A stretch of 44,775 nucleotides of DNA from positions 6,496-51,270 of the forward strand of contig JACQZJ010000131.1 in NCBI GenBank assembly GCA_016213895.1, in the 5' to 3' direction. Shown one piece after another: positions 10,224 to 38,861 of the stretch. The stretch comes from Planctomycetota bacterium (lineage in GTDB: Bacteria; Planctomycetota; B15-G4; JADJEK01). Position numbers and translations under genes: made by a program. Under the pieces are notes generated by a model, which worked only from the letters and a program-made list of their open reading frames with translations, made no database searches and was not told the origin of the DNA. Positions within the stretch are counted from its first letter, which is position 1. Each line of letters opens with the position of its first letter.

Positions 10224-12737
10224 GTGCCCGACCAGACCAGTTCCATCGACCGCCTGCAGGTCCCGCCCGAGAAGCTGCGCTGGCGCTGCGACGAGAGCCT
10301 CTTCCCCTTCGCGACCACCGCGGAAATCGAGCCGATCCTGGGCGTGATCGGCCAAGAGGACGCGGTCGAGGCCCTGCAGTACGGCCTCGAGATCGACGCG
10401 CCCGGCCAGAACATCTTCGTGCGCGGCCTGGTCGGCACCGGGCGGCTGACGCTCGTCGACGGGCTCGTCAAGCAGATCCGGCCGCACTGCGCGATCGTGC
10501 CCGACCTCTGCTACGTGCACAACTTCGCCGATCCCGACTGCCCGCGCCTCATCGAGCTGCCGCGCGGCGGCGGCCCGCTCTTCCGCGAGCGCGTCAACGA
10601 GCTGGTGGACTACATCCGCGAGAAGCTCGCGCCCGCGCTCGCCTCGGACGCGCTGCGCGTCCAGCAGGCGGAGCTCGAGGAGAAGCTGCAGCAGGAGCTG
10701 GACGCGATCGGCAAGCCGTTCGAGGAGGAGCTGAGCACGAACGGCCTGGTGGTGGTCACGGTGCAGGCCGAGGGCGGGATGCGCCCCATCATCCTGCCGC
10801 TGGTCAAGGGGGAGCCGACCTCGCCCGAGCGGCTGGAAGAGCTTCAGCACGAGGGCCAGGTCAGCGCCGAGGAGGCGGACAAGATCCGCGAGAAGGCCAG
10901 CGACTTCACCAGGCGCTTCCAGGAGCTGGGCCAGCAGATCCAGAAGGTGCGCGAGGCGCACCGCGGGCGCGTGCGCGAGCTCTTCGCGACGCAGGCGCGC
11001 TCGGTGCTGCAGTTCACGGTGCACGACATCGAGACGGCCTTTCCCCAGGAGAGGGTCAAGGTCTTCCTCGGCGAGGTGATCGAGGACGTGATCCGCCGCC
11101 AGCTCGGCGCCCAGGAGGACGAGCCCGACGGCGAGCGCCGCTACCGCGTGAACGTGATCAGCACGCGCGGTCCGGACGATTCCTGTCCGGTCGTGATGGA
11201 GAACACGCCGACGCTCGGCAACCTGCTCGGCGCGATCGGCCGCAAGTTCCTCCCCCAGGGGCTGATCCACTCGGATCACATGATGATCACCGCCGGTTCG
11301 CTCCTGCGCGCGAACGGCGGCTACATCGTCATGGAGGCGCGCGACGTGCTGCTGGAGCCCGGGGCGTGGAAGGTGCTGATGCGCACCCTGCGCACCGGCA
11401 AGCTGGAGATCGTCCCGCACGACTCCATCTGGTTCGCGACCGGCGCGCACATCAAGCCCGACCCGATCGCCATCTCGGTCAAGGTGGTGCTGCTCGGCGA
11501 TCCCGACCTGCACTACTGGCTCGACGAGAACGACGAGGACTTCTCCAACCTGTTCAAGGTGCTGGCGGACTTCGACTCCTCGATCGAGCGCGACGCGCAG
11601 TCGCTCAAGAACTACGCCGGGGTGCTGGCGCGCATCGCGCGCGAGGAGAAGCTGCCGCCGTACACGCGCGGCGGCGTCGCCGCCCTGGCCGAGCACGGCG
11701 CGCGCATCGCGGCGCGCAGCGATCGTCTGACCACGCGCTTCGGCCGCCTGGTCGACATCGCGCGCGAGGCGGCCTTCCTGGCGCGCGGCGCCGGGCGGGC
11801 GGCGGTGGGCAGCGAGGACGTGGTGGAGGCGGTGCGCCGGAGCAAGCGCCGCGCCGACCTGCCGGCGCGCCACTTCCGCAAGGCGGTGAGCGAGGGGACG
11901 ATCCGCATCCAGACCAGAGGCGAGGTCATCGGCCAGGTGAACGGGCTGGCGGTGACCCGGTCCGGGCCTCTGACCTACGGCTTCCCGGCGCGCATCACGG
12001 CCACGATCGGCGCCGGCCACTCCGGCACCATCAGCATCGAGCGCGAGGCGCAGCTCTCGGGAGCGATCCACACCAAGGGCTTCTACATCCTCGGCGGGCT
12101 CCTGCGCCACCTGCTGCGCACCGACCATCCGCTCGCCTTCTCGGCCTCGGTCGCGTTCGAGCAGAGCTACGGCGGGATCGACGGCGATTCCGCGTCCGGG
12201 GCCGAGATCTGCTGCCTGCTGAGCGCTCTCACGGACGTGCCGCTGCGCCAGGACCTGGCCATGACCGGCGCCATCGACCAGCTCGGCCACGTGCAGGCCA
12301 TCGGCGCGGTGAGCGAGAAGATCGAGGGCTTCTACGACGCGTGCGCCAGCGGCGGCCTGACCGGCACGCAGGGCGTCATCATCCCGAAGAGCAACGTCGT
12401 CGACCTGATGCTGCGCGACGACGTGGTGCAGGCCTGCGCCGCGGGCCGCTTCCACGTGTACGCCGTCGAGACGATCCAGGAGGCGCTGGAGGTCTTCACC
12501 GGCCAGGCGGTGGGGGTCCTGGACGAGGAAGGGCTCTACGCCGAGGGGACGCTGCTCTGGGCGGCGGTGGAGAAGGCGCGGGAGTACTGGATCAAGGCGT
12601 CCGGCCGGGAGGCCGTGCTCGTGGAGGAGGAGGGGCAGGGGGAAGAGGAGGGCGAGGCGGCGGAAGAAGGGACGGAAGAGGAGGAGGCGGGAGACGAGAC
12701 GCCCGAGCCCGGCCCCGGGCCTGAGCCGGAGGTGTGA
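10224..12737 (+). CDS. Lon-related AAA ATP-dependent protease
   Basis: 837 residues, cytoplasmic. The GTG start is well placed after GGAAGGAG. The N-terminal half has an AAA module with a Walker-A-like loop GLVGTGRLT (68-76), in which Arg stands where Lys is usual; I recall this variant as common in the Lon-related branch (AAA_32-type). A long coiled-coil insertion (about 130-260) and a lid domain follow. The C-terminal protease domain carries the Ser-Lys dyad: DGDSASGAE with Ser 656, and GAVSEKIEGF with Lys 699. The last 40 residues are an unusual acidic tail (runs of Glu, ending PGPGPEPEV). It likely degrades damaged or regulatory proteins; specific substrates are unknown. It is a stand-alone gene with its own promoter. 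Confidence 0.9.
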   Translation: MPDQTSSIDRLQVPPEKLRWRCDESLFPFATTAEIEPILGVIGQEDAVEALQYGLEIDAPGQNIFVRGLVGTGRLTLVDGLVKQIRPHCAIVPDLCYVHNFADPDCPRLIELPRGGGPLFRERVNELVDYIREKLAPALASDALRVQQAELEEKLQQELDAIGKPFEEELSTNGLVVVTVQAEGGMRPIILPLVKGEPTSPERLEELQHEGQVSAEEADKIREKASDFTRRFQELGQQIQKVREAHRGRVRELFATQARSVLQFTVHDIETAFPQERVKVFLGEVIEDVIRRQLGAQEDEPDGERRYRVNVISTRGPDDSCPVVMENTPTLGNLLGAIGRKFLPQGLIHSDHMMITAGSLLRANGGYIVMEARDVLLEPGAWKVLMRTLRTGKLEIVPHDSIWFATGAHIKPDPIAISVKVVLLGDPDLHYWLDENDEDFSNLFKVLADFDSSIERDAQSLKNYAGVLARIAREEKLPPYTRGGVAALAEHGARIAARSDRLTTRFGRLVDIAREAAFLARGAGRAAVGSEDVVEAVRRSKRRADLPARHFRKAVSEGTIRIQTRGEVIGQVNGLAVTRSGPLTYGFPARITATIGAGHSGTISIEREAQLSGAIHTKGFYILGGLLRHLLRTDHPLAFSASVAFEQSYGGIDGDSASGAEICCLLSALTDVPLRQDLAMTGAIDQLGHVQAIGAVSEKIEGFYDACASGGLTGTQGVIIPKSNVVDLMLRDDVVQACAAGRFHVYAVETIQEALEVFTGQAVGVLDEEGLYAEGTLLWAAVEKAREYWIKASGREAVLVEEEGQGEEEGEAAEEGTEEEEAGDETPEPGPGPEPEV

Positions 12738-24947: not shown

Positions 24948-25496
24948 CTAGTCTTCCTGCGCCAGGCGGCCGAGGGCGTCGCGGACCCTCGCCCAGCCGT
25001 GCTTGTTCGCCAGGGCCTCGAGCCCGGCGTCCACGTCCTCCGGGGCCGCCTGCGGCGCCGCCTCCTCGGTTCTCTCCTCGAAGGTCAGGGCGTCCGCCAG
25101 GCACCACTGGACGCAGAGGGGCTCCTTGAGCGTCGGGTCGGATTCGCACATGTCGCACTTCAAGGGGAGATCGGAGTCCGGCTCCTTGAAGAAGTCACGG
25201 GACGGGCAGGAAGCCCGGCAGAAGGCGCACTCCGCGTACTCCTTGCCGCCGATGACGTACTTGTCCCGGCCCGCGCACTCGGCCGCGGTGTATTCGCCGG
25301 CGTAGACGGGTATGTAGATGTCCGCCAGCGGCTCGCGAATGACGCGAACGCGCGCCCGCGCCGGATTGGTGCTGCTGTAGCGCGGCGAGGCGTGAGAGGC
25401 GGAGCAGATCACCTCGCAGGCGCGGCAGCCGTTGCACTTGTCGACGTTGATCTTGATGGTCTTGATGGTCTTGGGCTTGCTCTTCTCGGAGGTCAC
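24948..25496 (-). CDS. bamC: BamC-like electron-transfer iron-sulfur subunit
   Basis: 182 residues from GTG 25494-25496, which overlaps the bamB stop (GTGA). Ferredoxin-like with several 4Fe-4S motifs: CNGCRACEVIC (21-31), then ECAFCRASCPS, KCDMCESDP and CVQWCLADAL, enough cysteines for about three or four clusters. Family knowledge: BamC forms a tight heteromer with BamB and passes electrons to its iron-sulfur cluster. The Tyr/Pro-rich loop YIPVYAGEYTAAECAG is, as I recall, also seen in BamC. The acidic Ala/Glu-rich tail is variable. Gene order B-C-D supports the assignment over a generic ferredoxin. Confidence 0.85.
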   Translation of the reverse strand: MTSEKSKPKTIKTIKINVDKCNGCRACEVICSASHASPRYSSTNPARARVRVIREPLADIYIPVYAGEYTAAECAGRDKYVIGGKEYAECAFCRASCPSRDFFKEPDSDLPLKCDMCESDPTLKEPLCVQWCLADALTFEERTEEAAPQAAPEDVDAGLEALANKHGWARVRDALGRLAQED

Positions 25497-27502
25497 GCGG
25501 CGCCTCCCTTGCTCGAGCCTGGCGGCGACTGGCTCGCTGCCTCGCCCGGCAGGATGCCGCGCTTCTTGAAGTCCTCGGTCACGTAATCCAGGTCGAGTTC
25601 ATGCAGCGTCTCGTGCGTGGGGACCCCGTCCAGGTTCCAGCCCTTGAACTTGTAGTACTCGTCCAGGAGCTTCTTCTCGAGCTCGGGGAAGCGCTTCCTC
25701 CAGTGGTCCTCGGGGGGCTTCTCATCCTCTCGCGTCAGGCCCCTGCGAATGTTGTTGGCGCGCACCAGAGTGCGATTGCGCTTGGTGACGTGATTGAGTT
25801 TGGCTTCGTCCAGGTCGAGCCCGGCGCCGCAGGAGATGAGCTTGGGGAGGATGTGGATGTGGAAGGGCGGCTTGAGAGGGAACGAGGAGAGGCCGGCGCA
25901 CATGCCGGTGGCGTCGTCGATGTAGTGCATCTTCTCCTGCCAGTGCACGATCTCGCAGGTGGCATCCACGGGCGGGTACTGGGGAATGGACTTCTCTCCG
26001 CGCAGCTCCCATTCCACGAACCACTGCTTGAACCTCTCGTCGGGCACCTGTTCCCAGTCCGCGGCGAACGCCTCGCGCTCCGCTCTCGTCTCGAAGGGCG
26101 CCTGGGGGAAGTTGCCCTCGATTTGCGTGATGTTGGCCTTCTCCCCGGTGCAGTACATGAGGAAGTAGATCGGGTTGAGCATTCCGAGCTTGAGCGGGAG
26201 CTGCTCGGTCTTCTTGATGTTGTTGTGGGCGTACTCCTCCGCGCCCTTGCCGATCTCCTTGGCCGCCCAGTAGGTGCCGTTGGCGAGGATGTCTCCGATT
26301 CCCTCCCGGCGGACGATCCTGTCGAGCAGCCAGTAGAACTTGCCCTCGTTGTCGGCCGGCAGTCCCGGCATGTCCTTCTCGGTCAGGATGCCGGCCTCGA
26401 GCAGTTCCAGGGCGAAGGCCATGGTCTGCGGGGCGGAGAATGCGTCGACGCCGTGCTCGGTGGCCTTCTGGGCGATTCTCAGGCCGAAGTTGAGGTCGGA
26501 GAAGGCGGCCATGGTGTAAGTGAGCTTGGAGAAGCACTTCATCATGTAGGAGCACATGCGCGTGTCGACGGAGATGGCCGCGCCGCACTTCATCGGGCAG
26601 TTGTAGCAGCTCAGCAGGCGCGTGCGCATGGTCTCCATGGTGCCCGTCCACGCCGCCTTGACGTCGTCGGTCCAGAAGTCCTTGCGGCGGTGGCGGGCGT
26701 TGCCCCAGGCGAAGTTCTCCGTGTGCCACTTCTCGTCGTGGATCGCCATCTCCTGCGGTGACCCGAGCCCGGCGAGAATGGGCATGACCCCGGGAATCGG
26801 GTTCTTGGCGCGCACCCTTATGAACTGCAGCGCCTCGTTGCACATCTGCAGGAACTCGGCCGGCCGGGCGACGTTGACGTCCTGCGAGCCCTTGACGGCC
26901 ACGGCCTTGAGGTTCTTGTCTCCCATGACGGCGCCCACGCCCAGGCGGCTGGCGCTGGAGCGGCCCTGCTCGATGGAGGCGAAGAAGACCCGGTTCTCTC
27001 CGGCCAGGCCGATGGACGAGACCTGCGCGTGGGGCTCGTTCAGCTCCTGGCGAATCAGCTCGGCGGTCTCGAGCGAGCCGAGCCCGCGCAGGCGCGAGGC
27101 GTCGCGTATTTGCACCTTGTCGTCATTGATCCACAGGTAGACCAGCTCGGGCGACCTGCCGCGCACCACCAGCTTGTCGTAGCCGGCGAGCTTCAATTCG
27201 GGTCCCCAGAAGCCGCCCATCATGGAGAAGGCGAAGAGCCGGGTTTGCGGCGAGATGCAGGAGACGACCGTGCGGTTGCAGCCGGGGGCGGGCGTTCCGA
27301 CCAGGAGACCCGTGCCGAAGACGAGCAGGTTGTCAGGTGAGAAGGGCTCCACCTCCGGGGGAACCCGGTCCCAGAACAACTTGGCGTTGGTGCCGAGCCC
27401 GCCGAGGTGAAGCTCGGTCAGCCGCGGGTCCGTGGGCACCCTCTCGATGCTTCCCCGGGTGAGATCGACCTCGAGATTGAACCCTGTCTCTGCGTACCTC
27501 AT
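25493..27502 (-). CDS. bamB: Class II benzoyl-CoA reductase active-site subunit BamB
   Basis: 669 residues, tungsten-pterin enzyme of the aldehyde:ferredoxin oxidoreductase family. It keeps the pterin-binding N-terminus (MRYAETGFNLEVDLTRG, LGGLGTNAK, SMMGGFWGPELK) and the 4Fe-4S ligands C299, C302, C306 and C535. By hand count, E251, H255 and H260 (in QEMAIHDEKWH) and C323 (in MMKCF) fall on the residues I recall as forming the BamB active site, where a Cys binds tungsten; ordinary aldehyde oxidoreductases lack that Cys ligand. It should reduce benzoyl-CoA, or a related aryl-CoA, to the cyclic diene without ATP. First structural gene; its ATG overlaps the tetR stop. No TAT signal, so it is cytoplasmic. 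Exact aryl-CoA substrate is inferred. Confidence 0.88.
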   Translation of the reverse strand: MRYAETGFNLEVDLTRGSIERVPTDPRLTELHLGGLGTNAKLFWDRVPPEVEPFSPDNLLVFGTGLLVGTPAPGCNRTVVSCISPQTRLFAFSMMGGFWGPELKLAGYDKLVVRGRSPELVYLWINDDKVQIRDASRLRGLGSLETAELIRQELNEPHAQVSSIGLAGENRVFFASIEQGRSSASRLGVGAVMGDKNLKAVAVKGSQDVNVARPAEFLQMCNEALQFIRVRAKNPIPGVMPILAGLGSPQEMAIHDEKWHTENFAWGNARHRRKDFWTDDVKAAWTGTMETMRTRLLSCYNCPMKCGAAISVDTRMCSYMMKCFSKLTYTMAAFSDLNFGLRIAQKATEHGVDAFSAPQTMAFALELLEAGILTEKDMPGLPADNEGKFYWLLDRIVRREGIGDILANGTYWAAKEIGKGAEEYAHNNIKKTEQLPLKLGMLNPIYFLMYCTGEKANITQIEGNFPQAPFETRAEREAFAADWEQVPDERFKQWFVEWELRGEKSIPQYPPVDATCEIVHWQEKMHYIDDATGMCAGLSSFPLKPPFHIHILPKLISCGAGLDLDEAKLNHVTKRNRTLVRANNIRRGLTREDEKPPEDHWRKRFPELEKKLLDEYYKFKGWNLDGVPTHETLHELDLDYVTEDFKKRGILPGEAASQSPPGSSKGGAA

Positions 27503-28137
27503 TCGGTCTCCCTGCGGCCATCGCCGGAGGCGGAAGCGGTATACCCGTCGAGGAAGAGCGCGGTCTGTTGCGCCGCGAGGTCGTCGAGGCTCACGCGGAT
27601 GCGGTCGGGGTCATACCACTGGTAGAACCAGTTCAGCATGCCGAACAGGTTGGCCGTGGCGAGCCACGAACCGAGGGGAACCCCGTGCCTTGGCCGCAGC
27701 TCCTTGACCAAACCGTGGACGGCCTCGAAGTAGGAGCGGCGGCGTTCGCGCACGTCGTCGTATGCTTCGCCTTCGAGCGTCTCGAGCTCGCGGGCGCACA
27801 CTTTGAGCTTGTGCATGTTCTCGCCGAAGTGGCGCACGTGATTGCGTATGGCCGCGGCGAGACGCTGGCGCGGGTCGACCAGGCCATCCAGGCTGTTCTC
27901 CAGCCCGCGCAAGAGCGAGTCGAACGTGTGCAGCTGGATCCAGTAGAGGAGCTCCTCCTTGCTCGCCACGTAGTGGTAGATTCCCGCGAGGCTGACCCGG
28001 GCTTCGGCGGAAACGCGCCGCATGGAGGCCTTGTCGTACCCGACCGCGCAGAAGACCCTCGCCGCCGCGTCCAAGAGGTGGAGCCGCTTGCCGTCGAAGG
28101 CCGGGGTCCGTTTGCGCGCGGTTTGAAGTGGCAGCAT
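27499..28137 (-). CDS. TetR/AcrR-family regulator of the bam operon
   Basis: 212 residues. N-terminal TetR helix-turn-helix at about 20-65 (LLDAAARVFCAVGYDKASMRRV, then VSLAGIYHYVASKEELLYW). A C-terminal all-helical ligand domain follows (LRNHVRHF-like segments, VRERRRSYFEAVHGLVKEL, WLATANLFGMLNWFYQWYDP). The stop overlaps the bamB start (ATGA), so it is co-transcribed and probably controls the operon. Many TetR proteins in aromatic and fatty-acid catabolism release DNA on binding an acyl-CoA; benzoyl-CoA or a ring-cleavage product is a natural guess. A palindromic element lies 8 nt upstream of its start codon, suggesting self-repression. Confidence 0.88.
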   Translation of the reverse strand: MLPLQTARKRTPAFDGKRLHLLDAAARVFCAVGYDKASMRRVSAEARVSLAGIYHYVASKEELLYWIQLHTFDSLLRGLENSLDGLVDPRQRLAAAIRNHVRHFGENMHKLKVCARELETLEGEAYDDVRERRRSYFEAVHGLVKELRPRHGVPLGSWLATANLFGMLNWFYQWYDPDRIRVSLDDLAAQQTALFLDGYTASASGDGRRETE

Positions 28138-29319: not shown

Positions 29320-31035
29320 TCAACGGGGCTTGAGCTTGTCGCCCAGCCAGGTGGCAAGGGTCTCGAGGAACTCCGCGTCCACGGGCCTTTCGGTGAAGTA
29401 CTCCGCCAAGGTCGACTTCTCGCCTTCCACCTTCTTGAAGAGGTGGTCGAGGCCGGGGAATACGTGGAGCTCGTGATCCCGATGCTCCGCGTGGTCGAGG
29501 GCGGCCGCGAGGGGCGCGGCGTCCTTCTCCGGGGAGACCTGGAAGTCGAGAGCCCCCTGCAGGACGAGCACGGGGCACTGGACCCGACCGAGATTCTCCA
29601 CGGGGTCTTGCCGCGCGTGGTCCTGCAGCCACTTCCGGTTGGCGAGGAGCGCGCGGAACTCCTCGGGCAGGTCCGCGGGGTCGATCTCCCCCTCGCCTGC
29701 GACCCGCTCCAGGTTGCGGCGCACCTCCGCCAGCATCTCGGCGCGCTCCTCGCCGGCGACTCCCGCCGCGTCCAGCGCCAGCGCGTTCTGGTCGACGATC
29801 ACGTCCACCAGCGACCGGCCGGTGGAGGCCATGAGCACGATCGCCGCGATGCGCGGCCGCGTCGCCGCGAGGAGCGGCGCGGTGATCCCGCCTTCGCTGT
29901 GTCCGATCAGGGCGACGCGGTCGGGATCGACGTCATCCTGCTCGAAGAGGAAGTCGACGCAGGCCAGGGCGTCAGCCACGAGGTCGTCGTACCCGAGGTT
30001 CGACATGGGCCCGGCGCTGCCGCCCGCGCCGCGGTCGTCCACCCTGAGGACCAGGAAGCCGGCCGCGGTGAGATGGTCGAGGATCTCGTGCGTGCCGGTG
30101 TCGACTCCCGAGGAGAAGCCGTTGCGGTCCTGCAGGCCGGAGCCGGAGATGAAGAAGACCGCCGGCAGCCGCCCCTCTGCCTCCTTCGGCTTCGTCACCG
30201 TGCCGGCGATCGTGACGTCGCCCCGCACGATCGCCACGTCCCGGCTCGAGAAGCGCTCGTCGGGCCTTCTCGGGGCCGGCGCCTCGATCTCGAAAGCCTC
30301 GACCGGCTCGTCGCTCCGCCGGATGACCAGCTTCTGCGCCGCCACCTCCAGCCGGATCAGTCGGCCCGCGTCGCTCAAGTGAATGGTCTCGCCGAACGAG
30401 TCCTCGAGCACGACGCCCTTCACCGTGCGGCCGTCGATCTCCTCGGCGAACTCATCCACCCGATTGAACCGGTAGGGGATCACCCGCAGCACGTTGGTCG
30501 AGACGAGATCGACGGTCCGGACCGTCTCGTCGATCGGCGCCGCGAGCGCCAGCAGGACCTCGAAGTAGCCGATGAAGTTGTTGGCCTGGAGGAACACCGT
30601 CTCCGGCAGGTCGATCTCGACATCCCTCACGGCCCCACCCTGGACCAAGTGCACCGCGGCCTTCCGCGCCGCGACCGTGATCTCGACGCGCGACGTTGAC
30701 ACGCCCGCCTTGGCGTCGAGGACGTGCCGCAGCGGCCGCCCCGAGTCATCGGTCCAGAGCTCGGCCTGGTAGCGCTGCTCGACCGGCAGGGGGCCGCTTG
30801 GCGCCAGCCGGGTGCGCGCGGAGAAATGATGGGCCGTGAGCCCGAGGAGGCTCGTGGGCCCCTCGTAGCGCTGCCAGTGTTCGCCGATGCGCTTGCCGCC
30901 GGATTCGAAGATCCAGACGGCCTCCTCGCCCGGCTGGTAGAGGTCGCCGACCTTGCGGCCGGCCGTTTGCGCCGCGGCCAGGGCGCACGGGAGGACTGCG
31001 ATCAGCAGGGCAAGCGAGCCGAGAACGCGACGCAT
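29320..31035 (-). CDS. Secreted alpha/beta hydrolase
   Basis: 571 residues from ATG 31033-31035, chosen because GGAGG lies 5 nt upstream. The signal peptide (MRRVLGSLALLIAVLPCALA) is cut near residue 23. Residues 25-250 form a beta-rich N-terminal domain; residues 265-571 form an alpha/beta hydrolase: FFISGSGLQDR (oxyanion region), LRVDDRGAGGS, the nucleophile elbow IGHSEGG (Ser 380), LQGALDFQV (Asp) and FPGLDHLFK (His). It resembles secreted dienelactone-hydrolase or S9-like esterases/peptidases. It lies 49 nt downstream of the ATP-grasp-GNAT gene, so it could be the last gene of that operon, perhaps cleaving an exported conjugate, but this is inference. Confidence 0.82.
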   Translation of the reverse strand: MRRVLGSLALLIAVLPCALAAAQTAGRKVGDLYQPGEEAVWIFESGGKRIGEHWQRYEGPTSLLGLTAHHFSARTRLAPSGPLPVEQRYQAELWTDDSGRPLRHVLDAKAGVSTSRVEITVAARKAAVHLVQGGAVRDVEIDLPETVFLQANNFIGYFEVLLALAAPIDETVRTVDLVSTNVLRVIPYRFNRVDEFAEEIDGRTVKGVVLEDSFGETIHLSDAGRLIRLEVAAQKLVIRRSDEPVEAFEIEAPAPRRPDERFSSRDVAIVRGDVTIAGTVTKPKEAEGRLPAVFFISGSGLQDRNGFSSGVDTGTHEILDHLTAAGFLVLRVDDRGAGGSAGPMSNLGYDDLVADALACVDFLFEQDDVDPDRVALIGHSEGGITAPLLAATRPRIAAIVLMASTGRSLVDVIVDQNALALDAAGVAGEERAEMLAEVRRNLERVAGEGEIDPADLPEEFRALLANRKWLQDHARQDPVENLGRVQCPVLVLQGALDFQVSPEKDAAPLAAALDHAEHRDHELHVFPGLDHLFKKVEGEKSTLAEYFTERPVDAEFLETLATWLGDKLKPR

Positions 31036-31084
31036 ACTCACCTCCGCACGGGGGCACTGGTCGCCTCTGGGCGCCTGCCCCGTT

Positions 31085-32632
31085 TCAGCCGTCGAGGCGC
31101 TTGCCGAACGTCAGGCGCGGATCGCCCGGCCGGTAGGCGTCGGGCACGCAGCCGACGAGGGTGTAGCCGCAGGCCAGGTAGAAGGCGCGCGTGGCCGCGT
31201 ACATCGGCGAGCCGGAGGTCTCGGCCAGGAGCCAGCGGCCGCCCGCCTCGCTCACCATGCGCTCGGCGCGCGCGATGAGGAAGCGGCCCAGGCCGGAGCC
31301 CTGGAGCGCCGGGTCCACCGCGATCCAGTAGAGGTCGTAGGTGGCGTCCGTGAGCGGCACCAGGCCGTGGGTGGAGAAGCCGACAGGCCGGCCCTCGCGC
31401 TCGGCCACGATCGTCACGTAGCCAGACTTCACGCCGTCGCGGATCTCCTCCTCGAGGACCTCGCGGCCCACGTCGACCTCGTCGTCGCGGAACACCTTGG
31501 TCCTGGCGAGGATCTCCACCAGAGGCTCGAGGTCGTCGCGCCGCAGCCCGCGCAGCTCCGCGGGCGGCCCGGCGCTTCGCGGCTTCAGCCGCAGCGGCGC
31601 GGCCGGGGCGCGGCGCCCGCGCGCGCGGCCCGCGGCCGCCTGCGCCAGGCGCACGGCGAAGTCCTGGAAGCGGATGCCCGCGACCTCGAGCGCCCGGTCG
31701 AAGCCCGCGTCCGGACCCAGGTCGGGATTGGCGTTCACCTCCAGGATCCAGGGCTCGCCCGCGGTGTCCACCCGCAGGTCGATGCGCGCGTAGTCGCGGC
31801 AGCCGCAGGCCGCGAACGCGCGTAGCGCCAGGTCTTCCATGCGCCGCGCCAGCGACGCGTCCACCTCGGCCGGGCACCTGGGCGGCGTGTCCCGGCACTC
31901 GGCGCTCTCCGGGTCCCACTTGGCGTCGTAGCTCACGATCGCCCACTTGCTCAAATCGCGGCGGTCGAACACGATCTCCGCGAGCGGCAGGACGCGCGCC
32001 TCGTCTAGTTCGACGATGGCCGCGTTGAACTCGCGGCCGGGGACGAAGCGCTCGATCAGGACCTCGCCGAAGCGCTCGGCCACGGAGTCGACCTGACGGC
32101 GCAGGGCCTGCAGGTCCGTGACCACGCTCTTCTGCTCGAGGCCCAGGCTGGCGTCCTCGCCCGCGGGCTTGACGATGAGCGCGCCCGCGCGCAAGGCCTC
32201 AGCGATCTCGCGCTCGGGGAGCGCCGCGCCCGGGCGGATCCAGAAGAAGTCGGGCGTCGGCAGCCCCGCCCCGCGGAGCAGCAGCTTGGTCCGCGCCTTG
32301 TGGCGGGCCAGCGCCAGGCACTCGGGAGTCGAGCCCGTGTACCCCAGCCCTGCTGCCTCCAGCCAGGAAGCGACCCACGGCTCGCCCTCGGCCAGGCCGG
32401 CGAAGGACTCGCACAGGTTGAAAACCGCGTCGGGCAGCGGCCCGGCGCGCAGCGCCTCGAGATCGCGCAGGTCGTCCCCGACGCTGATCGTGCGCACCGA
32501 GTGGCCAGCCGCGCACAGCACGTCGGCGAAGGCCGACACGGAGTCCATGACGCCGCGCTCGGCGGCTGCTTCCGGATGCCCGGGCGCGAGCAGCGGCCGG
32601 TTGTGGATCACGGCGATGGAGAGCGTCGGCAT
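31085..32632 (-). CDS. ATP-grasp ligase fused to GNAT acetyltransferase
   Basis: 515 residues in two parts. Residues 1 to about 330 are a D-Ala-D-Ala-ligase-type ATP-grasp domain: AVFNLCESFAGL, GYTGSTPECLALARHKARTK, ALIVKPAGEDASLGLE, IERFVPGREFNAAIV, YARIDLRVD and the metal-binding ILEVNANPDLGPDAG. Residues about 360-510 are a GNAT domain: LRGLRRDDLEPLVEI, YWIAVDPALQGSGLGRFLI (acetyl-CoA loop) and ATRAFYLACGY. The ATG follows the stop of the preceding ATP-grasp gene with no gap. It would join a carboxylate to an amine with ATP, while the second domain acetylates an amine. With lysine 2,3-aminomutase upstream, beta-lysine is a likely substrate. No described family is claimed. Confidence 0.85.
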   Translation of the reverse strand: MPTLSIAVIHNRPLLAPGHPEAAAERGVMDSVSAFADVLCAAGHSVRTISVGDDLRDLEALRAGPLPDAVFNLCESFAGLAEGEPWVASWLEAAGLGYTGSTPECLALARHKARTKLLLRGAGLPTPDFFWIRPGAALPEREIAEALRAGALIVKPAGEDASLGLEQKSVVTDLQALRRQVDSVAERFGEVLIERFVPGREFNAAIVELDEARVLPLAEIVFDRRDLSKWAIVSYDAKWDPESAECRDTPPRCPAEVDASLARRMEDLALRAFAACGCRDYARIDLRVDTAGEPWILEVNANPDLGPDAGFDRALEVAGIRFQDFAVRLAQAAAGRARGRRAPAAPLRLKPRSAGPPAELRGLRRDDLEPLVEILARTKVFRDDEVDVGREVLEEEIRDGVKSGYVTIVAEREGRPVGFSTHGLVPLTDATYDLYWIAVDPALQGSGLGRFLIARAERMVSEAGGRWLLAETSGSPMYAATRAFYLACGYTLVGCVPDAYRPGDPRLTFGKRLDG

Positions 32633-33622
32633 CTAGCGTGAAGTCCTCGCCACCGCGGCGTCCAGGATGCGGCCGATGAGGTCGCGGTAGGGCACCCCCA
32701 TGGCTTTGGCGATCATCGGCAGGTCGCCGTACTCCGGCGACAGGCCGGGCAGCGGGTTGGCCTCGAGGAAGTACGGCACTCCGTCCCGCACGCGAAAGTC
32801 GATGCGCGCCACGTCGCAGAGGCCCATGGCCTGGAAGGCGGAAAGCGCGGCCCGTTCCACGGCCGCGAGCTGGGCGGCCGGCAGGCGCGGCGGGCACTGG
32901 TATTCGACCTGGCGCTTCCAGTCGCGCTTCACCTCGAGGTCGTAGACGAAGCGCTGGCGCGGCTGGCGCGGAACCACGCGCATCATCCCGAGCACGCGCG
33001 CCGGGCGGTTGCCGAGCACGCCCACCGTGATCTCGTCGCCGTGGATGAACTCCTCGACGAGCGCCGGCTGGCGATAGGCCGCCAGGCAGCGTTCGATCAC
33101 CGCGGCCAGGGCGCTCGGCTCCTCCACCACCGAGTCCGGCAGGATTCCCTTGCTCGATCCCTCCCAGGCCGGCTTCACGATCACGGGCAGGGGCAGGGCG
33201 GCCAGCTCGGCCGCGTGGTCCGCGGCGCGCTCGCGCACCAGCACCCAGCGCGCGGTGGGAACGCCGGCGCTCGCGACCACGCGCTTGGAGCAGTCCTTGT
33301 CGAGCGTGAGGGCCAGCCCCAGGGGATCGGAGCCGGAACAAGGGATGCCGATGAGCTCGAGGAACGCCGGCAGGCGCGCCTCGCGGCCGCGGCCGGCGCC
33401 CAGCCCCTCGGCGATGTTGAACACCAGGTCCGGCCGCGGGCCGGCGAGGAAGGCGCGCACCGCCTCCTCGCCGTCGCCGTAGCGCACGACCTCGTGGCCG
33501 AGGGAGCGGAGCGCCTCCTCGATGGACGCGATGGTTTCCGGGGGATCGAACTCTTCTTCGACGTCGTCCGTCGCGCCGCCCGCGGAGGGGGCGCGCATGT
33601 CGAAGGTCAGCCCGATCCTCAT
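32633..33622 (-). CDS. D-Ala-D-Ala-ligase-like ATP-grasp enzyme
   Basis: 329 residues. ATP-grasp signatures: LVFNIAEGLGAGRGREARLPAFLELIG, PCSGSDPLGLALTLDKDCSK, VIVKPAWEGSSKGI, LVEEFIHGDEITVGVLG, VARIDFRVRDGVPYFLEANPLPGLSP. Size and motif order match D-alanine-D-alanine ligase, yet its surroundings are not cell-wall genes: it sits 7 nt after the lysine 2,3-aminomutase gene and directly before a second ATP-grasp gene. I therefore infer a peptide- or amine-ligase working on a product of the aminomutase. It is distinct from the second ATP-grasp copy and shares only the general fold. Confidence 0.85.
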   Translation of the reverse strand: MRIGLTFDMRAPSAGGATDDVEEEFDPPETIASIEEALRSLGHEVVRYGDGEEAVRAFLAGPRPDLVFNIAEGLGAGRGREARLPAFLELIGIPCSGSDPLGLALTLDKDCSKRVVASAGVPTARWVLVRERAADHAAELAALPLPVIVKPAWEGSSKGILPDSVVEEPSALAAVIERCLAAYRQPALVEEFIHGDEITVGVLGNRPARVLGMMRVVPRQPRQRFVYDLEVKRDWKRQVEYQCPPRLPAAQLAAVERAALSAFQAMGLCDVARIDFRVRDGVPYFLEANPLPGLSPEYGDLPMIAKAMGVPYRDLIGRILDAAVARTSR

Positions 33623-33629
33623 GACCCGG

Positions 33630-34985
33630 TCACGCCTTCGGCCTGGCGGCGCGCCGGCGCCGCAGGCGCGGCATCCCCTCCGGCAGCAGGAAGCGCCCGT
33701 TGCCCGTGACCAGGTTGCAGACGCCGAGCTGCGCGGGCTTGTCGTCGCGCGAGACCACGGCGTCCTCGGGCTCGTAGCGGAAGAGCATGCCTTCGTAGTT
33801 GCGCAGCACCACCGCGCCTTCGCCGGCGGAGACCAGGTAGTTGGGCATGATCGGGATCTTGCCCGCGCCGCCCAGGCCGTCCACCACGTAGGTCGGCACG
33901 GCCAGGCCGGACACGTGCCCGCGCAGGCCCTCGATGATCTCCATGCCCTTCCAGATCGTCGTGCGGAAGTGGCCGTTGCCGATCACCGGGTCGCAGTGGA
34001 ACAGGTAGTAGGGCCGCACCTTGATGCGCAGGAGCGCCCGCACCAGCTCGCGGTAGACCTCGACCGAGTCGTTCACGCCCTTCAGCAGCACCGAATGGTT
34101 GTTCACCGGGATGCCCGCGTTCACCAGGGCGCGCACGGCGCGCGCCGATTCCGGCGTGACCTCGCGCGGGTGGTTGAAGTGCGTCTGGATCCAGACCTTG
34201 CCCACGGATTGCAGCAGCTGGACGAGCGACGAGTCGAAGAGCCTCTGCGGCAGGGTGACCGGCACGCGCGACCCGACGCGGATGACGTCCACGTGCGGGA
34301 TGGCGGCGAAGGACTCCAGGAACCAGCGCAGCCGCGCCGGCGGCAGCATGAGCGGGTCGCCGCCGGAGAGGATGACGTCGTGGATCTCGCCGTGCTCCTG
34401 GACGTAGCGCACCATGCGCCGCTCGTCGCGCGTCGGGCCCTTCCAGCCGTCGCGCGCGATGGTGACGCGCTTGCGCGTGCAGAAGCGGCAGTACATCGAG
34501 CACAGGGGCGTGGTCAGGACGAGGACGCGGTCCGGGTAGCGGTGCGTGAGGCCCGGGACCGGGCAGTCCTTGTCCTCCTCCAGCGGGTCCTCCTGCTCGA
34601 GCGCCGACTCGTTCTCCTCCTCGACCGACGGCACGGACTGCCGCCGGATGGGGTCCTGCGGGTCATCGGCGTCGATGAGCGAGAAGTAGTACGGAGGAAT
34701 GGTCAGCTTGAAGCTCTGCTCCATCCGTTCGAGACGCGCGCGTTCGGCGGTCGGGAAGTGGAGGAGTCGGGCGAGCTGGCCGATGGAGGTGATGGAGTAG
34801 CGGAGCTGCCACTTCCAGTCGTCCCACAGCTCGGTCGGGATGTTCGCCCAGGAAGGGTGGCGGCGGGGGCGAACCCGCTCGCTGAGGGAGGGAAGGGACA
34901 GTGGGTCAGGATCGTCGGACGGGCTCGAGCAGGTCTCGCTCCCGCCAGACACGGTAGCCACAGAGCCGGTTCCGCTCATGTTCAT
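33630..34985 (-). CDS. kamA: Lysine 2,3-aminomutase (radical SAM)
   Basis: 451 residues. The radical SAM cluster motif is CSMYCRFC (C162, C166, C169). The PLP Lys is K376 in VVDGLGGAGK. D332 (in HCDP) and D369 (in VVDG) are 37 residues apart, the same spacing as the two aspartates I recall (D293 and D330) that bind the lysine side-chain amine in clostridial KamA, so lysine rather than glutamate is the expected substrate; the product would be beta-lysine. The ~50-residue N-terminal stretch is low-complexity Ser/Pro, and an ATG 6 nt later is equally possible. First gene of the unit with two ATP-grasp genes. A hairpin covers the ribosome site. Confidence 0.9.
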   Translation of the reverse strand: MNMSGTGSVATVSGGSETCSSPSDDPDPLSLPSLSERVRPRRHPSWANIPTELWDDWKWQLRYSITSIGQLARLLHFPTAERARLERMEQSFKLTIPPYYFSLIDADDPQDPIRRQSVPSVEEENESALEQEDPLEEDKDCPVPGLTHRYPDRVLVLTTPLCSMYCRFCTRKRVTIARDGWKGPTRDERRMVRYVQEHGEIHDVILSGGDPLMLPPARLRWFLESFAAIPHVDVIRVGSRVPVTLPQRLFDSSLVQLLQSVGKVWIQTHFNHPREVTPESARAVRALVNAGIPVNNHSVLLKGVNDSVEVYRELVRALLRIKVRPYYLFHCDPVIGNGHFRTTIWKGMEIIEGLRGHVSGLAVPTYVVDGLGGAGKIPIMPNYLVSAGEGAVVLRNYEGMLFRYEPEDAVVSRDDKPAQLGVCNLVTGNGRFLLPEGMPRLRRRRAARPKA

Positions 34986-35155: not shown

Positions 35156-37516
35156 TCAGCGCGGCCGGCCGAGCTTGCGGATTCCGGCGAGAACGCGCTC
35201 CGGCGTGGCGGGCAGCTCGTCGATGACGACCCCGGTGGCGTCGCGGATCGCGTTCAGGATGGCCGGGATGGTCGGCATGATGCCCCCCTCGCCGACCTCC
35301 TTGGCGCCGAAGGGCCCGTTCGGCTCGTGGCTCTCGACGATCAGGGCCTTGAGCTCGGGCGAATCGAGAGCCGTGGGGATCTTGTAGTCCGAGAGGTTGG
35401 GGTTCTGGATCCTCCCCCGGGCGTCGAACAGGACCTGCTCGTAGAGCGCTTCCCCGTGGCCCATCGACATCGACCCGTGCATCTGCCCCTCGACCTGGGT
35501 GCGGTTCACGGCCTGCCCGCAGTCGTGGGCGCCGGTGATCCTCAGCACCTTCACCTGGCCGGTCTCCAGGTCGACGGCCACCTCGGCCACCTGGGCGGAG
35601 CAGCCGTAGGCCGGGGAGGTGCCGACCGCGGCGCCTTTGAAGCCGCCGCCCAGGGGCGGCGGCCGGTACTGCCCGGTGCCGATGATCAGCCCGCGCTCGA
35701 GAAAGGCGAAGCGGGAGACCTCGCGGAAGGTCAGCGGCCCCTCGGCCGGCAGCCCGCCGAACCCGCGGTGCTCCTTCTGGAACTCGGCGCGGATCGCCTC
35801 GTTCAGGTAGGGCGCGCCGCGCAGGTGGAGGAGCCCGCGCACGAACGAGAAGTCCTCCGCGGGCTCGCCGGCGGCGCGCGCCAGCGCCTCGAGGATCTGG
35901 CGGAGCACGCTCTCGGCAGCCTCTTTCGCCGCGTGGCCGGTCATGAGCGTGGTGCGGCTGGAGTAGGCGCCGAGGTCGAGCGCCAGGTCGGTGTCGCCCG
36001 AGAAGACCGTGACCAGGTCGAGCGGAATGCCCAGGGCCTCGGCCGTGATCGTGGCGAGCATGGTGTCCGAGCCCTGGCCGATCTCCGCGGCGCCGGAGAG
36101 CACGTGCACGCCGCCGCCGTTCTCGTCCACGCGCACGCGCACCGTGCAGTGCGGGGTGCGCGAGCGGTAGATCGGGTAGCCGGCGCCGGACACGAAGAAG
36201 CCGCAGGCCATGCCGATGCCGCGCCCCGCGGGCCGCCGCTCAAGGCGTTTCTCGTCCCAGCCGCAGTCCGCCCGCACCGCCTCGATGCACTCGCGCATGC
36301 CCAGGCTCGACATGTTCAGGTCGTTGCAGGTCACGTCGCCGGCCTGCATCACGTTCTTCAGGCGCAGCTCGATCGGGTCCATGCCGATCTCCTCGGCCAA
36401 GAGGTCGAGCTGCTGCTCGAACAGGGCGCGCGCGTGCACCGCGCCGTGGCCGCGCTGCGCCCCGCAGGCCGGCTTGTTCGTGACCACGCGCCAGCCGTCG
36501 TACTTCATGTTGGGCAGGCGGTAGGGCCCGCCGAGCAGGCTGCCGGAGTAGTAGACCGTGGCGATGCCGAAGCTGGCGAAGGCGCCGCCGTCCAGGACCG
36601 CCCGGTGCTCGAGGAAGACGAGCGTCCCGTCGCGGCGGATGCCGGTCTCCATCTCGTGGCGGAACTGGTGGCGCGCCCGGCCGTGCAGGAAGACCTGCTC
36701 GCGGCTGAAGACGGTCTTGACCGGCCGGCCGGTGGCGCGCGCCAAGAGGCAGGTGGCGATCTCCATGCTGCTCGCCGAGGCCTTGGGCCCGAAGCCGCCG
36801 CCCACGTAGGGCTTGACCACCCGCACGCGGTGCTCGGGCAGGCCGAGGACCATGGCGAGCGTGCGCTGCACGTAGTGCGGGGTCTGCGTGGCGCTCCACA
36901 GGGTGAGGCGGCCGGCGTGGTCGAACTCGGCGAGCGCGCACTGCGGCTCGAGGAAGGCGCCGCTCTGCATCTTGGAGGTGAACGTGTCCTGGCGGATGAC
37001 CTCGGCCTGGCCGCGCGCGCGCGCCACGTCGCCGAACTCCTGGTGCACCTCGGCGCAGATGTTCCCCGGGTACATGTCGTGGAGCTTGGGGGCGCCCGGG
37101 GCCATGGCCGCGGGCGCGTCCAGGACCGCCTCGAGCTCCTCGTACTCGACCTCCACCAGGGCGGCGGCCGCGAGCGCCGTCTCGGCGTCGACGGCCGCCA
37201 CGGCCGCCACCTCGTCTCCCGCGTAGCGCACCTTGTCCTGCGCGAGCACGGTCTCGTCGTAGCGCGCCGGGCTGACGCCGAAGCGCACTTGCGGCACGTC
37301 CTTGCCGAGGAGGACCGCCTTCACGCCCGGCAGGCGCAGGGCCCGGTCGGCGTTCACGCGCACGATGCGCGCGTGCGCCAGGGGGCTGTGCACCAGGGCG
37401 CCGAAGAGCATGCCCGGCCGCTTCAGGTCGGCGGCGTAGAGCGCGCGGCCCGTGACCTTGTCGCGGGCGTCGACGCGCGGGGCGCGGCCGCCGAGCACCT
37501 GGAACTCCCTGCTCAT
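35156..37516 (-). CDS. Xanthine dehydrogenase family molybdenum-binding subunit
   Basis: 786 residues; ATG overlaps the stop of the 2Fe-2S subunit gene (ATGA), and in the frame upstream of this ATG there is no coding resemblance. Family features: RVDARDKVTGRALYAADL, VRYAGDEVAAVAA, SGAFLEPQCALAEF, YVGGGFGPKAS, GAAEIGQGSDTML, PPLGGGFKGAA, and the catalytic Glu region GAKEVGEGG. It would hydroxylate or oxidise a heterocycle, aldehyde or CoA thioester with the molybdopterin cofactor, working with the FAD and 2Fe-2S subunits upstream. The substrate cannot be read from the sequence. No export signal, so it is cytoplasmic. Confidence 0.9.
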   Translation of the reverse strand: MSREFQVLGGRAPRVDARDKVTGRALYAADLKRPGMLFGALVHSPLAHARIVRVNADRALRLPGVKAVLLGKDVPQVRFGVSPARYDETVLAQDKVRYAGDEVAAVAAVDAETALAAAALVEVEYEELEAVLDAPAAMAPGAPKLHDMYPGNICAEVHQEFGDVARARGQAEVIRQDTFTSKMQSGAFLEPQCALAEFDHAGRLTLWSATQTPHYVQRTLAMVLGLPEHRVRVVKPYVGGGFGPKASASSMEIATCLLARATGRPVKTVFSREQVFLHGRARHQFRHEMETGIRRDGTLVFLEHRAVLDGGAFASFGIATVYYSGSLLGGPYRLPNMKYDGWRVVTNKPACGAQRGHGAVHARALFEQQLDLLAEEIGMDPIELRLKNVMQAGDVTCNDLNMSSLGMRECIEAVRADCGWDEKRLERRPAGRGIGMACGFFVSGAGYPIYRSRTPHCTVRVRVDENGGGVHVLSGAAEIGQGSDTMLATITAEALGIPLDLVTVFSGDTDLALDLGAYSSRTTLMTGHAAKEAAESVLRQILEALARAAGEPAEDFSFVRGLLHLRGAPYLNEAIRAEFQKEHRGFGGLPAEGPLTFREVSRFAFLERGLIIGTGQYRPPPLGGGFKGAAVGTSPAYGCSAQVAEVAVDLETGQVKVLRITGAHDCGQAVNRTQVEGQMHGSMSMGHGEALYEQVLFDARGRIQNPNLSDYKIPTALDSPELKALIVESHEPNGPFGAKEVGEGGIMPTIPAILNAIRDATGVVIDELPATPERVLAGIRKLGRPR

Positions 37517-37980
37517 GGGCCCCTCCGCGCCGCGCGCCGGATCGACTCGACGATCTTCTGGTAGCCGGTGCAGCGGCACAGGTTGCCGGCGATCGCCTCG
37601 CGGATCTCCTGCTCGCTGGGATCGGGATTGGCGGCGAGCAGGCTCGTCGCCGCGAGCAGCATGCCGGGCGTGCAGAAGCCGCACTGCACGCCTCCCTCCT
37701 CGACGAAGGCCTGCTGCAGCGGGTCGAGCTGGCCCTCCCTGGCCAGGCCCTCGACCGTGACCACCTCGCGGCCCTCGGCCTGGAGCGCGAGCACCAGGCA
37801 GGAGGAGACCGGCAGGCCGTCGAGCAGCACCGTGCACGCCCCGCAGTCGCCTTCCCCGCAGCCCTCCTTGGCGCCGGTCAGGCCGAGGTCGTCGCGCAGC
37901 ATCTCCAGCAGCGTGCGGTTGGGGGGGACCGCGGTCTCCACCGGCTCGCCATTCACGCGCAGGCGGATCAGGCGCTTCAT
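37513..37980 (-). CDS. 2Fe-2S subunit of the molybdenum dehydrogenase
   Basis: 155 residues. Plant-type 2Fe-2S motif EGCGEGDCGACTVLLDG with further Cys in SSCLVLA, then the second 2Fe-2S domain QCGFCTPGMLLA and GNLCRCTGYQKI. This is the standard small subunit of xanthine-dehydrogenase-family enzymes and carries electrons from molybdenum to FAD. Both ends overlap neighbours by ATGA, so the three subunits are translated in a coupled way. Confidence 0.93.
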   Translation of the reverse strand: MKRLIRLRVNGEPVETAVPPNRTLLEMLRDDLGLTGAKEGCGEGDCGACTVLLDGLPVSSCLVLALQAEGREVVTVEGLAREGQLDPLQQAFVEEGGVQCGFCTPGMLLAATSLLAANPDPSEQEIREAIAGNLCRCTGYQKIVESIRRAARRGP

Positions 37981-38861
37981 TGGCCGCCTCCGGCGGAGGC
38001 CAGGGCCGCGGCCAGGGCGCGGCGCACCAGCACCGCGACCATCTCGCGGCGGTAGGCGGCGCTGGCGCGCAGGTCGTCGATGGGGCGCGCCTCGCGCGCG
38101 GCTGCGGCCGCGGCCGCCGCGAGCAGCTCCTCGCGCGGCTCTCGGCCGGCGAGCAGGCTCTCGGCGGCGCGCGCGCGGAGCGGCACGGGCGCCACCGAGC
38201 CGAGCGCGATGCGCGCTTCGAGGACGATGCCTCCGGGCCGGTCGAGCGTGATCCTGGCGGCGGCGCTGGCGATGGCGATCTCGAGCGCGGCGCGCTGCCC
38301 GAGCTTGAAGAAGGCGCTGCCCGAAGAGCCCGCGGGCAGCTCGATCTCGACCGCGACGAGCAGCTCGTCCAGCCGCAGGGCGCTCGCGCCTGGACCCGTG
38401 AAGAAGTCGTGGAGCGGCACGGAGCGCTCTCCTCCAGTGCTCTCGAGCCGGACGCTCGCGTCCCAGGTGAGGAGCGGCGGAGCCGTGTCGGCGCAGGGCC
38501 GGGCGCTCGCCAGGTTGCCGCCGAGCGTAGCCAGGTTGCGGATGAGCGGCGAGCCCACCGCGCGCGCGCCCGCGGCCACGTTCGCGCAGGCCTCGCGAAG
38601 GAGCGGGTCGGCGGCGATCTCCGTCATGGTCGCGAGCGGGTCGATGGTGAGCCGCGCCCCGTCCCGCGCCACGGCCGGCCGGCCGGCGCGCAGCCGGCGG
38701 ATGGAGACGACCCGCTGCGGGCAGAGGAGTCCGCGCTTCATCCTGACCAGGAGGTCCGTGCCGCCGGCGAGGAGCGCCGCCTCCGGGCCGGCGCCGGCGA
38801 GCATGCGGCAGGCCTCCGCGGCGCTTTCGGCTTCGGCGAACTCGAACATCGGCAGGCGCAT
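37977..38861 (-). CDS. FAD-binding subunit of the molybdenum dehydrogenase
   Basis: 294 residues. FAD-binding motifs LLAGGTDLLVRMK and RNLATLGGNLASARPCADTAPPLL, then ALEIAIASAAARI near the C-terminal domain. The region after NLASARPC lacks the long Cys-rich insertion that carries the extra 4Fe-4S cluster in 4-hydroxybenzoyl-CoA reductase, so I do not call it that enzyme. GAGG lies about 10 nt before the ATG. First gene of the three-gene operon; 59 bp separate it from the divergent ThiS-like gene. Confidence 0.9.
   Translation of the reverse strand: MRLPMFEFAEAESAAEACRMLAGAGPEAALLAGGTDLLVRMKRGLLCPQRVVSIRRLRAGRPAVARDGARLTIDPLATMTEIAADPLLREACANVAAGARAVGSPLIRNLATLGGNLASARPCADTAPPLLTWDASVRLESTGGERSVPLHDFFTGPGASALRLDELLVAVEIELPAGSSGSAFFKLGQRAALEIAIASAAARITLDRPGGIVLEARIALGSVAPVPLRARAAESLLAGREPREELLAAAAAAAAREARPIDDLRASAAYRREMVAVLVRRALAAALASAGGGQ

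Follow-up and report, generated by a model that had tools for sequence, protein, structure and literature searches.

Three adjoining genes on the minus strand of the window (the stretch of 44,775 nucleotides of planctomycete DNA that was analysed, taken from an assembly of 5.5 Mb in 218 contigs) encode a KamA aminomutase, a Ddl-fold ATP-grasp ligase (AG1) and a fusion of a second such ligase (AG2) with a GNAT domain. The best explanation of the evidence as a whole, which we consider rather probable, is that these genes form an operon yielding a small, probably cytosolic, peptide that contains beta-lysine. The KamA-AG1 pair is the minimal conserved unit, and AG2 and GNAT are an add-on in most lineages. 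AG1 is predicted to be the core partner of KamA, ligating beta-lysine to another amino acid, and GNAT is predicted to be an N-acetyltransferase that works together with AG2.

Gene set and recurrence across genomes

The kamA gene (33630–34985, minus strand) is an ORF of 451 amino acids with an ATG start, the product of which carries the Pfam domains Radical_SAM and LAM_C. It is followed after 7 nt (33623–33629) by AG1 (32633–33622, minus strand; 329 amino acids, ATG start; Dala_Dala_lig_C, E = 5e-35) and then, with a gap of 0 nt, by the AG2-GNAT fusion (31085–32632, minus strand; 515 amino acids, ATG start), in which Dala_Dala_lig_C is combined with Acetyltransf_7/1. Within the fusion, the AG2 domain occupies residues ~1–337 (31622–32632, minus strand; Dala_Dala_lig_C, E = 2.5e-27) and the GNAT domain occupies residues ~359–515 (31085–31558, minus strand; Acetyltransf_7, E = 7.6e-10), and the Pfam domains of all three proteins exceed the gathering cut-offs. 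The original prediction had described three genes with gaps of 7 and 0 nt that encode a KamA, two D-Ala-D-Ala-type ligases and a GNAT fused to the second of these; the ORF coordinates agree with the arrangement and Pfam agrees with the domain calls. Comparison with a genome of the same genus (G007) gave dN/dS values of 0.14 for KamA, 0.11 for AG1 and 0.28 for the AG2 part, and the three genes are therefore under purifying selection. In that genome, the copy of the fusion (L031:216–1595) has a frame change inside the GNAT domain, which is either an assembly error or decay.

An alpha/beta-hydrolase gene (29320–31041), separated from the fusion by a 43-nt gap downstream, was considered as a member of the set and was left out because it is not a recurring neighbour elsewhere. 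A gene for the large subunit of a xanthine dehydrogenase-like molybdopterin hydroxylase (35156–38861) lies on the same strand 170 nt upstream of kamA and is apparently unrelated to the set. The window also contains genes for an aldehyde ferredoxin oxidoreductase (AFOR_N/AFOR_C; 25493–27502), for a TetR-type regulator just upstream of it (27499–28137) and for a LonB/LonC-like AAA protease (10224–12737). A search for Rfam elements, including riboswitches, found none in the window and only tRNAs near six relatives.

GTDB genomes were scanned for AG1, and of the 575 matches confirmed, the 80 highest-ranking were retained, so that the counts describe the closest relatives and a biased sample. With a run defined as neighbouring domains on the same strand less than 700 nt apart, kamA lies in the run of AG1 in 57 of these 80 loci, AG2 in 49 and GNAT in 38, and the commonest layout among them is KamA-AG1-AG2-GNAT. 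Within the same best 80 of 575, the set spans about ten bacterial phylum-level groups, with loci in Planctomycetota, Chloroflexota, Acidobacteria, Omnitrophota, Margulisiibacteriota and Ozemobacter, as well as in Lindowbacteria, Auribacter, Magnetococcales, Coriobacteriales and Deltaproteobacteria/Myxococcales. Recurrence in other genomes, on which the original prediction had been made to depend, was thus found. A phylum search with the AG1 profile gave AG1 matches above 250 bits in more than 60 genomes, and another ATP-grasp gene frequently adjoined AG1.

The layout varies around this common order. In three genomes from another family of the window's class (G011–G013), KamA, AG1, AG2 and GNAT are encoded by four separate genes that keep this order, and a gene for a DUF3109 protein follows GNAT as the fifth. 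GNAT has a gene of its own in most relatives, in many of them immediately behind AG2; it is fused to AG2 in the window and at L076, L113, L124, L170 and L171. KamA-AG1 occurs without AG2 and GNAT in 10 of the 80 loci, some of which end at contig ends, and a strong match to AG2 was found elsewhere in the genome in all four planctomycete genomes with this layout that were tested. The position of AG2 is filled by a RimK-like ATP-grasp in the loci of Omnitrophota and Margulisiibacteriota. Of two single-contig genomes, one of 1,469,720 bases has KamA-AG1 and one of 1,686,510 bases has the full set.

In some lineages the set comes with further genes. An HDAC-family deacetylase (PF00850) comes after GNAT or is fused to it in 8 of the 80 AG1 loci (best 80 of 575), and several Chloroflexota and Auribacter have such a gene following GNAT. 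At one locus (L150:2215–4467), a single protein of 750 amino acids beside AG1-AG2 contains histone-deacetylase and GNAT domains, and so combines opposing acetylation activities. Loci of the Myxococcota type have two AG1-like domains fused together, followed in several cases by a peptidase S58 gene, and have no adjacent kamA; at L132, L136, L146, L148 and L153, an AG1-like pair, mostly fused, is followed by peptidase S58 with no kamA adjoining. KamA relatives are present elsewhere in all nine of the searched genomes with loci of this type. The peptidase S58 family includes beta-peptidyl aminopeptidases. In nine Chloroflexota loci, a short gene for a MarR-like winged-helix protein lies upstream of kamA.

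KamA and its substrate

Residues 41–443 of KamA align to the solved lysine 2,3-aminomutase 2A5H with an E value of 1.8e-123. The best NCBIfam match is AblA (TIGR03820), with 465.5 bits, which is under the equivalog cut-off of 525.4; the models for glutamate 2,3-aminomutase and arginine 2,3-aminomutase gave 403 and 358 bits, respectively, and the KamA-family model TIGR00238 gave 324.9 bits, above its cut-off of 199.2. All 81 operon KamAs, including that of the window, keep R134, D293, D330, the PLP lysine K337 and the radical-SAM cysteines C125/C129/C132 of the CxxxCxxC [4Fe-4S] motif. The cysteines of the clostridial Zn site (C268/C375/C377/C380) are lost in the operon KamAs, and none of them is kept in the KamA of the window; this site is not known to be a requirement for every lysine 2,3-aminomutase.

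Both lysine-binding aspartates, Asp293 and Asp330, are present, as had been noted earlier. In a control with paralogues, many KamA paralogues in the same class also keep the checked residues, including the aspartate pair, so that the pair supports beta-lysine without proving lysine as the substrate, and its use as proof of lysine specificity was dropped. In a tree, a single clade (support 0.93) holds the operon KamAs together with 2A5H, AblA and one KamA of rhizobial origin, and EpmB, TIGR03822 and the KamA paralogues fall outside it; the tree included no characterised arginine or glutamate enzyme. The KamA of the window groups with Gemmatales/planctomycete sequences and apart from G011–G013, which belong to its order; this placement is suggestive of horizontal transfer. 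The earlier conclusion that beta-lysine is the likely product is thus carried by the best score to AblA, the residues kept in 81 of 81 sequences and the tree, and no longer by the aspartate pair, which is not diagnostic. Taken together, the sequence comparisons strongly indicate lysine as the substrate of KamA.

The two ATP-grasp ligases

AG1 and AG2 share the fold, the domain family and the catalytic ATP/Mg residues with Ddl/VanA. The AlphaFold2 models have a pLDDT of 91.2 for AG1 and of 91.1 for the whole AG2-GNAT fusion, in which residues 340–354 form a low-confidence linker between the domains, and Ddl is the nearest solved structure to both. Against the NCBIfam Ddl model, with a cut-off of 243 bits, AG1 scores 175.5 bits and AG2 scores 127.7 bits, and AG1 is under every Ddl cut-off listed. 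AG1 also has a profile match to the L-amino acid ligase BL00235 (3VOT), a dipeptide-forming ATP-grasp, but this match is weak (E = 1e-11), far weaker than that to Ddl.

The columns equivalent to K144, K215, R255, D257, E270 and N272 of Ddl were read as ATP-grasp catalytic residues and those equivalent to E15, S150, Y216, G276, S281 and L282 as D-Ala-site residues. The catalytic residues are kept in 81 of 81 AG1 and 19 of 19 AG2 sequences, except at E270, where AG1 has 79 Glu and two Asp and AG2 has 16 Glu and three Asp. The D-Ala site of both ligases differs from that of Ddl/VanA by changes that are specific to each subfamily. In AG1, the equivalent of Y216 is Arg, Glu or Lys (Arg in 73 of 81) and that of L282 is Ser, Gly or Ala, with S150 and G276 retained; the column for E15 is aromatic, in a region of uncertain alignment. 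In AG2, S150 is replaced by Ala, Y216 by Trp and G276 by Asp or Cys in all 19 sequences. The canonical D-Ala-site residues are present in the other Ddl of the same genome (L204).

Proposed pathway and competing explanations

In the proposed pathway, KamA would convert L-lysine to beta-lysine with the aid of SAM, [4Fe-4S] and PLP, and AG1 would then use ATP to activate a carboxylate as an acyl phosphate and join beta-lysine to a second amino acid, and this KamA-AG1 step would be the conserved core. AG2 would form another amide bond and the GNAT fused to it would acetylate an amino group, and the product, by the logic of the bifunctional Ngg, would be an N-acetylated beta-lysyl di- or tripeptide. 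Where an HDAC-type deacetylase stands beside GNAT, it would strip the acetyl group. We place moderate confidence in a beta-lysyl peptide as the product, and we infer the order of the steps and the second amino acid, to which the neighbourhood genes give no pointer. The original prediction that beta-lysine is joined to another amino acid or a small peptide and then acetylated is partly supported: it gains from the recurrence of the set and from the support for lysine, and loses the aspartate pair as a diagnostic feature, and acetylation as the last step is one of two possible orders. A role like that of a compatible solute is weakly suggested and rather doubtful; judged by record titles, the lineages that carry the set are not particularly halophilic.

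The nearest solved structures and families of AG1 and AG2 are all Ddl, which would suit cell-wall D-Ala-D-Ala or D-Ala-D-X ligases that stand beside kamA by chance, with the set modifying peptidoglycan. This reading is very improbable, and a cell-wall role was set aside on the changed D-Ala sites of both ligases, the separate canonical Ddl of the genome and hosts that are poor in Mur ligases. Mur_ligase_M gave 0–2 weak matches in 12 Chloroflexota genomes with the operon, 11 of which are titled Dehalococcoidia, Dehalococcoidales or Chloroflexi bacterium, compared with 5–6 matches in the control genomes of a Myxococcus and an Omnitrophota, and the weak matches are consistent with folylpolyglutamate synthase alone. 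The presence of the operon in Dehalococcoidia without Mur ligases thus argues that the set does not serve the cell wall, as do three genomes of 1.4–1.5 Mb in which the sole match to the AG2 profile is AG1, adjoining kamA, and the adjacency to kamA that is repeated across phyla. That beta-lysine is attached to a macromolecule, be it protein, tRNA or lipid, is improbable, although a little less so; such attachment recalls the beta-lysylation of EF-P, which is served by EpmB, a KamA-family aminomutase making beta-lysine, and the broad distribution of the set, which extends to very small genomes, speaks for a basic function. However, EpmB forms a lineage separate from the operon KamAs and the KamA of the window scores 236.6 bits against an EpmB (TIGR03821) cut-off of 369.3, on which grounds its identity as EpmB was rejected. 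Moreover, neither an EpmA-like synthetase nor a carrier protein is a repeated neighbour of the set, and Ddl-type ATP-grasps link free amino acids.

The remaining two alternatives, both of which we regard as unlikely, concern the acetyltransferase and the aminomutase. The set might be a variant of the AblA-AblB pathway to N-epsilon-acetyl-beta-lysine, which also combines a lysine 2,3-aminomutase with a GNAT, so that GNAT would acetylate free beta-lysine and the ATP-grasps would be unrelated or act later; AblA is indeed the nearest relative of KamA, with which the operon KamAs group, and GNAT belongs to the set. However, AblB (TIGR03827) had no match in 14 genomes of the window's class, with the positive controls matching, and is absent among the NCBIfam matches listed for the AG2-GNAT fusion, and the AblAB pathway was rejected on its absence from these genomes. 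The set also differs in having two ATP-grasp ligases and a KamA without the zinc cysteines, GNAT travels with AG2, even as a fusion, and AG1 is found where GNAT is missing. Slightly less unlikely is a KamA substrate other than lysine, for instance arginine or ornithine, in which case the operon would give a different beta-amino-acid peptide. A score of 465 bits under the AblA equivalog cut-off of 525 and checked residues that are not unique to lysine enzymes leave room for this, whereas the AblA score is well above those of the glutamate and arginine models and true lysine 2,3-aminomutases fall between operon KamAs, in a tree without a characterised arginine or glutamate enzyme.

The beta-lysyl peptide pathway that we prefer resembles the N-acetylglutaminylglutamine amide (NAGGN) pathway (Ngg, AsnO and an aminopeptidase), in which a GNAT is likewise joined to a ligase and N-acetylation is coupled to ATP-driven ligation: Ngg acetylates a first glutamine and links another one to it, combining both activities in one enzyme (PMC8070244). 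By this analogy, acetylation may precede ligation in the present pathway. A peptidase is associated with NAGGN, which may be compared with the S58 peptidase of the Myxococcota loci, and the MarR-like gene upstream of kamA in Chloroflexota recalls that the NAGGN operon is under MarR control, as a resemblance only. In contrast, the NAGGN pathway has no aminomutase and only one ligase, whereas the ligases of the window set are Ddl-type, its GNAT is C-terminal and it has no asparagine-synthase-type amidotransferase. The Ngg model is absent among the best 25 of the 30 NCBIfam matches of the AG2-GNAT fusion, and asparagine synthase is absent among the gene families that recur near the operon.

A wider reading, to which we give a little less than even credence, is that intracellular beta-lysine peptides form a class spread through many phyla, including Dehalococcoidia without cell-wall genes, that they are reversibly acetylated in some and that they have gone unnoticed so far because their ligases are annotated as D-Ala-D-Ala ligases. 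No description of the kamA-AG1-AG2-GNAT set was found in the open-access literature, and the novelty of the pathway is not certain. The pathway predicts an undescribed family of metabolites, for the most part in bacteria that are uncultured but also in some that are in culture. It also corrects a likely misleading annotation as D-Ala-D-Ala ligase in bacteria without Mur ligases, and the route that it offers from lysine to a beta-peptide is testable. Cultured hosts appear to carry the set.

A search of plasmids for AG1 found only distant rhizobial ATP-grasps with 31–35% identity, and the one inspected, on an NGR234 plasmid, has no kamA beside it. On plasmids of Rhizobium sp. CB3090 (L190) and Rhizobium sp. 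NLR16a (L191), the ATP-grasp gene that adjoins kamA is of a different kind, with a biotin-carboxylase-like annotation at L190, where ectB and GNAT genes lie nearby; these loci possibly represent another kamA-ATP-grasp pathway.
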